Assembly (NCBI GenBank): GCA_035295165.1
Contig: DATGJN010000026.1
Location: forward strand, 1-64,000
Length of the DNA stretch: 64,000 nucleotides
Reading direction: 5' to 3'
Source of the DNA: a bacterium
GTDB lineage: Bacteria; Sysuimicrobiota; Sysuimicrobiia; Sysuimicrobiales; Segetimicrobiaceae
The translations under genes and the position numbers were made by a program. A model generated the notes under the pieces. The model saw only the letters and a list, made by a program, of their open reading frames with translations, did not search any database and was not told the origin of the DNA. Positions 8,845-11,742 of the stretch are shown one piece after another. Every line of letters starts with the position of its first letter. Position 1 is the first letter of the stretch.

Positions 8845-8857
8845 CTGACTTAAAGGC

Positions 8858-8886
8858 GGGGCCGGAAGCCATCGGCTTCCGGCCCC
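8858..8886 (+). terminator. Perfect hairpin terminator-like element
   Basis: A 13-bp perfect stem (8858-8870 with 8874-8886) and a 3-nt loop lies 14 bp after the stop at 8844 and 27 bp before the convergent SelW-like gene ends. It can fold on both transcripts and probably separates the two genes. No strong T-run follows on either strand. Confidence 0.6.
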
Positions 8887-8912
8887 CCAACGGCGGATCG
8901 ATTGGTCGTCGG

Positions 8913-9161
8913 CTACGAGCCGCCGAGGGACAAGGCGGCGAGAATCTCGTCCGCTTCTGGCCGTCTTCCGGTCTGTTTCTTGGAAAAGACCAAACGGCCG
9001 TTGGCTGTCACTTCAAATACCCCGCCGGACGACGGGATCAGCCGCACCGATTCGATTTCAGAGAGGTTCTCTTTGAGGATTCGCTCCGTCACACGGACGG
9101 CGTGGGGAAGATACCCTCAACTCGTGCAGTACTCGATCGCGAGCGCTATCTTGCCAGCCAC
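8913..9161 (-). CDS. SelW/Rdx-family protein with in-frame TGA (probable selenoprotein)
   Basis: Reading through one TGA gives an 82-residue protein that matches the Rdx (SelT/SelW/SelH) thioredoxin-like family along its whole length: IEYCTS-(TGA)-GYLPHAV at the redox site, then SSGGVFEV (residues 44-51) and LVFSKKQTGRRPEADEIL. The TGA (9117-9119) falls exactly where the second Cys of CxxC is expected, giving CxxU, a known form of this family. A small hairpin 16 nt after the TGA resembles a bacterial SECIS. I start at GTG 9161 because GGAGGTG lies 6 nt upstream; an in-frame ATG at 9188 is an alternative. Conventional calling would miss it. The main alternative is a gene killed by a Cys-to-stop change. 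Confidence 0.8.
9086..9100 (-). promoter_or_regulatory. Putative bacterial SECIS hairpin
   Basis: On the minus strand a 5-bp stem CCGTC/GACGG with loop CGTGT starts 16 nt after the in-frame TGA; the loop begins 21 nt after it, with G as its second base. That spacing and a G early in the loop match the loose bacterial SECIS pattern that recruits SelB. The stem is short, so it supports but does not prove recoding. Confidence 0.5.
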
Positions 9162-9875
9162 GAACTTCACCTCCGATGTCCGTTGCATGCACTCTTAGTA
9201 CGCTTTTGATATAACATATGGCGACTCGTTTTGCTAACCCCCTCATGGGCGCCGGGCACGACGCCGGTTCGCGGCAGTCTGAGTGGACGAAGATTGTTGT
9301 CTCGGCACGTTGACCTTCGCGTCTCCATCGCGCATAATTACGTCAGGCGCAATCTCCCGGAGCCCCAACGACCGGCGGATCAGCGCAACCGAATAGTCCA
9401 GCACCGTACTTCCTCGGGCGGCAACCGCAGGTACGCACGATCATTCCGGCGGAGCGATTGAGGAAAGTGTATTTGCGCCGACGCGGGTGCGGCTGAGCAG
9501 CGGAGCGCGTGCCGGAGTCCCGGCGCCAATGGCAGAGAAGAACTCGCCCGTGCCGATGTTGGCAGGTGTGCAGTCGTGGTTGCCCATCGGTGATGGCAAG
9601 TGCGACAGTATGTGTCTCGGACGTTGGCACCTGGGTAGGCGTGGCGAACCGCCGCCGGGTTGGTTACGTTGCTTCGAGTGTAGGATCACGCTGCACCGGG
9701 TAAGTGTCTTGATAAGAGGAAGCGATCGATTGTTCGGCCGAGGAGGGCCCGTGCCGGATTCCGATCGCGGGTGTCTCGGCTGCGCTCGATGGGACGCCCC
9801 GGTTTTGGGTTGTCGCGGTGTACCGGCTACATCGAATGCGTTGGCCACAAGTAGCATTGGATGGAGGGTATGAGG
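9162..9875. other. Gap without a recognised gene
   Basis: About 700 bp between the SelW-like gene and the cold-shock gene. The left end must hold the promoter of the minus-strand SelW-like gene and the right end that of the cold-shock gene, but I see no convincing sigma-70 boxes. A 53-codon minus-strand frame (9243-9404, beginning VLDYSVALIRRSLGLRE) reads more like protein than its surroundings but has no homologue I recognise and may be a gene relic. Confidence 0.4.
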
Positions 9876-10358
9876 ATGTCCGGGCAGTTGGATCGTATCG
9901 AGCAGATGCTACGTGCGCTGTGCGCCCATCTCGGTGTGCACGATCTTGAGCAAGTAGTGGCGACCAACGGGGCGGAGTCCCAAGTCGCTGACGGCCGCCG
10001 CTACACCGGAGTCGTGTCTCGCTTCGAGCACGGATGGGGATTCATCGAATGTGAAGCGATGAACCGCAATTTCTTCGTCCACTACAGCGACATCGAAGGC
10101 ACCGGCCTCCGTTCGCTGGATGCCGGCGAAACCGTGTCGTTCGAGATTGCGCCTGGTAAGGATGGACGTCCGAAGGCGGTCAAGGTGCGGCGGCAAGGAA
10201 CGGTCCGCTCGCCGCTCCGGTCACCGCGCATCGAGGCGATTCCCCGCCGGCCACCCGCCTACGCGAACGGCGACGACGGGCTCGATGCCGAGGAAGGCAC
10301 CGACGAGCATGAAGTGGCGCAACCAACGGGTCCGGCGGTGGGTCCCACGCGACCCTAG
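9876..10358 (+). CDS. Cold-shock-domain protein with N- and C-terminal extensions
   Basis: A 160-residue protein, more than twice the length of CspA. Residues ~1-35 (LDRIEQMLRALCAHLG) form a short amphipathic, probably coiled-coil helix. Residues ~43-107 are a cold-shock domain: YTGVVSRFEHGWGFIE contains the RNP1-like strand and NFFVHYSDIEG the RNP2-like strand, followed by RSLDAGETVSFEI and KAVKVRR. The ~50-residue tail is basic, then proline-rich and acidic. The fold binds single-stranded RNA or DNA. I use the ATG at 9876 because GGAGGG lies 7 nt upstream; ATGs at 9861 and 9870 are in frame. Oligomerisation through the helix is inferred. Confidence 0.85.
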   Translation: MSGQLDRIEQMLRALCAHLGVHDLEQVVATNGAESQVADGRRYTGVVSRFEHGWGFIECEAMNRNFFVHYSDIEGTGLRSLDAGETVSFEIAPGKDGRPKAVKVRRQGTVRSPLRSPRIEAIPRRPPAYANGDDGLDAEEGTDEHEVAQPTGPAVGPTRP

Positions 10359-10550: not shown

Positions 10551-10626
10551 GGGCCCGTAGCTCAGTGGATAGAGCAGGGGACTCCTAAGCCTCTGGTCGG
10601 GTGTTCGATTCACCCCGGGCCCGCCA
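10551..10626 (+). tRNA. tRNA-Arg(CCT)
   Basis: A 76-nt cloverleaf with encoded CCA. The acceptor stem is GGGCCCG/CGGGCCC, the D arm GCTC-AGTGGATA-GAGC and the T arm GGGTG-TTCGATT-CACCC. Anticodon loop CTCCTAA gives anticodon CCT, reading AGG (Arg). The anticodon stem has one G-T pair and an A-G mismatch at its loop end, slightly irregular but compatible with function. An extended -10-like TGCTACACT (10511-10519) lies upstream. Its 3' end abuts a tyrosine-recombinase remnant, the usual arrangement of an integration site. Confidence 0.95.
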
Positions 10627-10633
10627 AGCCTTA

Positions 10634-10960
10634 TGTCCCACGCGCACCCCCCTGGATGAGGCCGTCGAGGCGTTCCTCCTCACGAAGCGTGTCGCCGGCT
10701 GCACCGCCGAGACCCTGCGCACCTATGATGGGTGGCTTCGGCGTTTTACCGCAGGGGTGCCGGAGACCACGGCGCTGGCGGTTCGCACGTTCTTCGTGGG
10801 GCTGCAGCACCTCAGCGCCAGCCGCCAGCACCAAGCATTCCGCACGTTGCGGACGTTCTTCCGGTGGTGCGTCGAGACAGGCGTGCTCCGGGAGACCCCA
10901 TTCCGCGGCTTCACGATGCGCACCCCCAAGACGCTGCCAGACCTGCCGGCGCTCCCATCT
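10634..10960 (+). pseudogene. Tyrosine recombinase, N-terminal remnant at tRNA-Arg
   Basis: In the frame running through 10646-10951 there is a clean phage-integrase SAM-like N-terminal domain: TPLDEAVEAFLLTKRV, CTAETLRTYDGWLRRF, then RTLRTFFRWCVETGVL and the linker RTPKTLPDLP that normally leads into the catalytic domain. After that the frame loses all similarity; none of the catalytic R-H-R-Y boxes follows on this strand. The fragment begins within ~20 bp of the tRNA-Arg 3' end, where integrase genes of tRNA-targeted elements usually sit, and no start codon with a ribosome site is left. I read it as the remnant of a lost integrative element. Confidence 0.75.
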
Positions 10961-11137
10961 CAACCTCATGGGCAAGGGGCAGCACCGGGCACGCGCACGG
11001 GCTGTACGAATCGCCGCTCACGCCGCGACTGGTCATCGAAATGGTCGGCGCGTGCTCGGCGAACTCCCCACACCGGCGCTGACCGTCGCCGTTGCGCGTG
11101 CGCCGGGAAACCAGCCACCGGGAGGGCAGCAGGTCTA

Positions 11138-11271
11138 CGGGGGCGCGAGCACAGGCGAATACCTGTTCATCGTTGTGCCAATACTAGCAATGACCCAAGA
11201 GTTCTTGCGCGATCCGCGCGTGGGCGCCGTAGCGCAGGAGGAGCGTCGCGCAACAATGTCGGGGATCGTGA
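11138..11271 (-). pseudogene. Tyrosine recombinase C-terminus, frameshifted and inverted
   Basis: On the minus strand one frame reads HDPRHCCATLLLRYGA, then RIAQELLGH (about 11270-11190), which is the HxxR box and conserved LLGH of tyrosine recombinases. The continuation SIGTTMNRYSPV, with the catalytic Tyr, is in another frame (about 11185-11150). Together they form the classical C-terminal ~45 residues, broken by a frameshift near 11188. The fragment faces the N-terminal remnant beside tRNA-Arg, so the two cannot be one simple truncated gene: either an internal inversion or two decayed integrases. Confidence 0.7.
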
Positions 11272-11319
11272 CAACGATTCGGGGCACGACTGCTTGCCGA
11301 CGCTGGGGATGGTGCAGCC

Positions 11320-11742
11320 TTACGGCCCGAACGGAATGCTGAAGTTGCCGAAGGAGGATGCGCTCCATCCATGAGCGGTGCACGAGTCCAAGGGGTTCTT
11401 GCCCTGCCCCACCGGCCCGTTCAAATACATCTGCGCGATCATGAAACAGGTCATCAGCAACCGCTTGGAGTCATCATTTTCTTTCGAGAACATGTTGACC
11501 TGAGTCTGTTGCAGCACGGTCTGCGCCTGTTGCAGTGCAGTGAGTTTTGATTCGATGTTTCCCAGGCGCGTCGAAATGTCGGTAAGGTCTTTGTCCAGTG
11601 CGTACGCTGGGCCCTGTGCCGCAGGTGCGGGCGCCAGCGGTGCTGCGTGCGCGTCCGGCGTTGGAAGATTAACGAGAATCGTACCCAGTTCAAAGGTAAT
11701 TGCAGTCAACAGGACAATCGTCAGAACCTGGAACTGTTTCAT
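11320..11742 (-). CDS. Membrane-anchored coiled-coil hypothetical protein
   Basis: A 140-residue protein with an N-terminal hydrophobic helix (VLTIVLLTAITFELGTILV) acting as signal or anchor, an Ala/Pro-rich linker, and a heptad-rich helix (DISTRLGNIESKLTALQQAQ onward) likely to form a coiled coil, then a C-terminal part with two cysteines. I do not recognise a family. The ATG at 11742 has GGAGG 8 nt upstream. It has the same orientation as the VOC gene upstream but is separated by ~340 bp containing two hairpins, so it is probably transcribed alone. Confidence 0.6.
   Translation of the reverse strand: MKQFQVLTIVLLTAITFELGTILVNLPTPDAHAAPLAPAPAAQGPAYALDKDLTDISTRLGNIESKLTALQQAQTVLQQTQVNMFSKENDDSKRLLMTCFMIAQMYLNGPVGQGKNPLDSCTAHGWSASSFGNFSIPFGP

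Follow-up and report, generated by a model that had tools for sequence, protein, structure and literature searches.

A SelW-like gene with a predicted selenocysteine codon and bacterial SECIS element in an uncultured member of the Sysuimicrobiota

RESULTS

Organization of the selW-like locus

We analysed a stretch of 64000 nucleotides (the window) from the draft genome (4.79 Mb, 98% complete) of a member of the Segetimicrobiaceae, in the phylum Sysuimicrobiota (formerly CSP1-3). Its minus strand contains a reading frame that starts with a GTG at 9161, ends with a TAG at 8915–8913 and specifies 82 residues plus the stop when its sole in-frame TGA, at offset 42 of the frame (residue 15), is read through. 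A sequence-only reading of the window had proposed that such read-through restores a complete Rdx-family protein containing the motifs SSGGVFEV and FSKKQTGR and preceded by a textbook ribosome-binding site. Both motifs are indeed present in the read-through protein and the GGAGGTG element lies 6 nt before the GTG (Table 1), with the selW genes of relatives having an ATG or GTG at the equivalent position and a similar ribosome-binding site before it. A search of the source genome revealed no second Rdx gene, the selW-like gene being the only one found.

Table 1 Features at the selW-like locus of the window
Feature	Position	Strand	Remarks
selW-like gene	9161..8913	minus	predicted 82-residue Rdx-family selenoprotein; GTG start, TAG stop, CTSU
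In-frame TGA, predicted to be read as selenocysteine (residue 15)	9117..9119	minus	conserved in relatives
Ribosome-binding site GGAGGTG	9168..9174	minus	6 nt 5' of GTG
Predicted bSECIS, apical hairpin	9086..9100	minus	stem CCGUC (9100–9096)/GACGG (9090–9086), loop CGUGU (9095–9091)
Extended hairpin, UGA paired at base	9074..9119	minus	−18.5 kcal/mol, z −2.7
Terminator-like hairpin, weak U tract (CCUUUAAGU)	8855..8888	minus	24 nt 3' of stop codon
Cold-shock-domain protein gene	9861..10358	plus	PF00313, E=3.1e-16; divergent from selW

The terminator-like hairpin behind the gene has a folding energy of −33 kcal/mol (z −5.1) and is absent from the output of the consensus terminator scan, probably because its T run is short. 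On the other side lies the divergently oriented cold-shock-domain gene, a neighbour that also adjoins selW in two other loci (L104, 2238–2735, and L023, 2133–2606). Given this divergent neighbour and the strong hairpin 3' of the stop codon, the selW-like gene probably forms a separate unit. In addition, the window contains at 10601–11374 a frame with only the N-terminal SAM domain of a phage integrase (PF13495), which is perhaps what is left of a mobile element adjacent to selW and the cold-shock gene.

Family membership and predicted fold

The assignment to the Rdx family was borne out by profile searches, in which the read-through frame matched PF10262 (Rdx) with E=1.5e-20 (73.6 bits against a cut-off of 22.6) and TIGR02174 with E=1e-17 (64.2 bits against a cut-off of 34.2). 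With Sec read as Cys, the frame also matched NF041051 (SelTWH_Campy; E=9.7e-25, 86.6 bits), missing the equivalog cut-off of 88 bits in this profile scan by 1.4 bits, which by the curated rule would place the protein outside that exact subfamily.

An AlphaFold2 model built from 36 family members had a mean pLDDT of 82.5, and its best PDB matches were bacterial SelW-related structures with TM scores of 0.82–0.93, thioredoxins ranking lower down; the model thus predicts the thioredoxin-like fold of the Rdx family. Cys-containing Rdx proteins of solved structure (2fa8, 2p0g and 2obk; 28–38% identity) share this fold, with TM scores of 0.86–0.93, but carry Cys where the window protein would have Sec. 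Their CxxC motif aligns with the CTSU of residues 12–15 (Cys12 and Sec15), which sets the TGA codon opposite the second redox Cys, exactly where the sequence-only reading had put it. Mouse SelW (2npb) is also an Rdx-family protein with a CxxU motif, although more remote from the window protein (E=9e-4, TM 0.66). Eukaryotic SECIS elements are located in the 3' UTR and are of a different kind from those of bacteria (cf. PMC1088965).

Conservation of the in-frame TGA and of the protein behind it

We searched the genomes of 61 relatives and found a homolog in 20, with a TGA inside the gene in 19 of these. Within the family to which the window belongs, the redox codon is TGA in all 7 other homologs found (8/8 with the window), and the same holds for 80 of the 80 loci fetched from contigs of other genomes, which span Bacillota, Chloroflexota, Verrucomicrobiota, Desulfobacterota and others. 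When relatives were inspected for disabling changes, they were found to have kept the TGA and to show none of these. The lone Cys form (TGC) comes from a different family of the same order (L114, G019:C3:19818-20045); it has AAGG for SSGG, and its genome retains selA and selC despite the Cys form. Most genomes with the TGA form have selA above the cut-off; at this level selA was not found in two of them, G011 (68% complete) and G018 (93% complete, with selC).

Downstream of the TGA, dN is 0.2–0.3 whereas dS is at least 1.4; the part of the protein behind the stop codon is therefore judged, from these substitution rates, to be under purifying selection and to form part of a working protein. The closest named records are MAGs labelled ‘Terrabacteria group bacterium ANGP1’ (Candidatus Segetimicrobium genomatis), and among the SelW proteins of same-family genomes one is identical with that of Centralia_MAG_45 and two with those of ANGP1 MAGs.

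A covarying hairpin follows the UGA

A hairpin of SECIS-like spacing had been suggested to follow the TGA, and the interval 9080–9120 of the minus strand does contain one. It has a 5-bp apical stem, with the loop lying 21 nt after the UGA and carrying G then U at its second and third positions. The published bSECIS model specifies an upper stem of 4–16 bp, a loop of 3–9 nt, a distance of 16–37 nt from the UGA, a G at loop position 1 or 2 with a G or U directly behind it, and an MFE of ≤−7.5 (PMC13188914), all of which apply to the window hairpin. The 50 nt from the TGA form the extended hairpin at the energy given in Table 1, and 25 nt fold with −8.0 kcal/mol. Folds like the extended hairpin occur in most same-family members, and covariation backs its apical part only. 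A thermodynamic fold of 9126–9077 gave no signal (z 0.19), because this stretch cut the base of the hairpin on the 3' side, and an Rfam scan at the selW locus returned nothing of note. Across 89 loci, the 50-nt stretch from the TGA was more structured, with a mean z of −1.18, than control stretches of the same genes, with −0.04.

The evidence for the stem comes from an alignment of 58 gap-free sequences, in which positions 20–24 pair with positions 30–34 in 95.2% of cells, a value that falls to 32–60% when the partner is shifted by 1–3 columns. The covariation score of the stem was 0.570 compared with 0.216 after shuffling (0 of 500 shuffles), with compensatory changes at four of the five pairs and the closing pair changing from C-G to G-C, U-A and A-U. 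RNAalifold, unprompted, recovered the same stem minus its outermost pair and plus one pair within the loop. At the codon level, GCC-GTC-CGT-GTG over the apical hairpin is identical in 8 family members, and conserved residues in these 8 genes have invariant codons at 5 of 11 positions over the hairpin compared with 1 of 23 elsewhere (Fisher p=0.008). A GC3-matched synonymous recoding test was weak for the window sequence (p 0.22) and strong across 81 sequences. In the window sequence the covarying stem is slightly less stable than an alternative pairing, UCCGU-GUG-ACGGA; the exact pairing is therefore taken from the relatives, which favour the covarying stem. On the strength of this alignment, we identify the hairpin after the UGA as a predicted bacterial SECIS element. 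The Tissierella-like selW loci (L028, L035, L036, L039, L043 and L051) have a loop 17 nt from the UGA, in AGAGC-AGUU-GCUCU, compared with approximately 22 nt.

Selenocysteine machinery and further selenoprotein genes

We looked for selA, selB, selC and selD in the source genome and all four are present. The selC gene (tRNA-Sec) scores 70.6 bits against an Rfam cut-off of 47 and is called tRNA-SeC with anticodon TCA by ARAGORN; selA (E=5e-161) adjoins selB (E=3e-98), and selD was found with E=1e-114. The encoded SelB has C-terminal winged-helix (SelB-wing) domains, the part by which known SelB proteins bind SECIS hairpins. In this draft genome selC does not share a contig with selA and selB and has a tyrosine-integrase gene as its neighbour (selC at 1497–1591 of L001, integrase at 1643–2836; G000:C76), whereas it lies approx. 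5 kb from selA in G002, a genome of the same genus (L132), and approx. 19 kb from it in G001; a mobile element may have been inserted between selB and selC in the source genome.

The selD gene (L018, G000:C80:6495-7415, minus strand) in turn contains a single in-frame TGA, located at the redox site of its product (CAG-U-ASK), a position at which many SelD proteins carry Sec. Two formate-dehydrogenase-like genes (FdhA) on one contig (L123, G000:C69:30079-31956, minus strand; L126, G000:C69:3827-4618, plus strand) also have a TGA inside, in TUHAPSV and VUHGPTV, which is the usual Sec position. Selenoprotein genes were sought family by family and their count is a lower bound; the genome probably encodes at least four selenoproteins, namely the SelW-like protein, SelD and two FdhA proteins. 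Among the other genomes, G028 (94% complete) has a strong tRNA-Sec match (81 bits, G028:C14:31379-31467) and no selA was found in it, so that this selC is either an orphan or its selA contig is missing. In addition, G008 has selA in two copies and two good matches to selC, one pair each on C11 and C34, reflecting either a true duplication or contamination (6%).

DISCUSSION

The gene described here almost certainly encodes a SelW-like (Rdx-family) selenoprotein, its UGA being decoded as Sec through SelB and the hairpin. That this lineage reads UGA as selenocysteine had been proposed by the sequence-only reading, and is supported by the sel genes, the conserved TGA and the putative bSECIS. The sequences themselves provide the gene, its family, the Sec machinery, the covarying hairpin and the signature of selection. 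For the cell, we infer that SelB with Sec-tRNA(Sec), bound to the hairpin just past the UGA, would insert selenocysteine in place of termination by release factor 2. The product would adopt a thioredoxin-like fold with Cys12 and Sec15 between the first strand and the first helix, where the two residues would most likely be joined in a reversible selenenylsulfide and serve to reduce a substrate, either a thiol or a peroxide.

A lone TGA in an otherwise open frame is also what would be seen if a Cys codon had been changed by pseudogenization or sequencing error, leaving the gene dead or misread. However, the same TGA recurs in all 7 homologs found elsewhere in the family and in 80 loci of several phyla, purifying selection persists past it and the hairpin covaries; with the TGA conserved in independent genomes we rejected this explanation, which we regard as extremely unlikely. 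The frame would likewise be open under a code in which UGA stood genome-wide for a standard amino acid (Trp, Gly or Cys), but TGA ends more genes in the window than any other stop codon (20 of the 36 likely genes), so the codon has not been reassigned as a whole. As the TGA position also aligns with the Cys of the Cys forms, and tRNA-Sec and the full Sec machinery are present, a genome-wide change of code is scarcely conceivable and was rejected given the use of TGA as a terminal stop.

Selenium limitation makes Sec insertion inefficient, and the sequence is compatible with a UGA that is read by occasional insertion of Cys or by near-cognate insertion, or that yields mainly a truncated peptide of 14 residues. 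Against this, the TGA and a covarying SECIS have been maintained over TGC or TGT, which would be needless for the insertion of Cys, and we consider such an outcome very unlikely. Decoding of the UGA as Sec is the reading that we prefer.

SelW-like proteins with a CxxU motif are a catalogued family of bacterial selenoproteins (PMC1088965, PMC1794560, PMC9312934, PMC13188914), listed in reviews as PF10262 CxxU (PMC9312934, PMC13188914), and outnumbered all other selenoprotein families in the Sargasso Sea data (PMC1088965). The window gene has the family, the length, the CxxU and the downstream bSECIS in common with them and shows no essential difference. Sec is also the usual form, Cys homologs being very rare among Sec users (PMC1794560), likewise in the present study. 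What is new is the host lineage: the gene adds one more member to a selenoprotein family that has been recorded from bacteria since 2005, here from an uncultured phylum of soil bacteria. The SelW of Epsilonproteobacteria (PMC4607533; NF041051 SelTWH_Campy) belongs to the same family and provides an earlier case of selW genes being overlooked in genome annotation (PMC4607533).

The paper describing the phylum Sysuimicrobiota does not mention selenium (PMC11604079), and in the open-access literature we found no paper containing both ‘CSP1-3’ and ‘selenocysteine’; the lineage has apparently not yet been noted as a Sec user. It seems fairly likely that the uncultured Sysuimicrobiota are a Sec-using lineage so far undescribed as such, that the present genome has four or more selenoprotein genes and that the SelW-like selenoprotein is the preferred form in the Segetimicrobiaceae.

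For the family, which a 2026 review (PMC13188914) continues to class as predicted, the alignment of 58 sequences provides a clear covarying bSECIS. For the organism, gene finders would miss the selW-like gene, as its active-site Sec is written as a stop codon. The fdhA gene belongs to the CO2 fixation proposed for the Sysuimicrobiota (PMC11604079), and annotations or metabolic models of this phylum that take TGA as a stop will break both the SelW-like and the Fdh genes.
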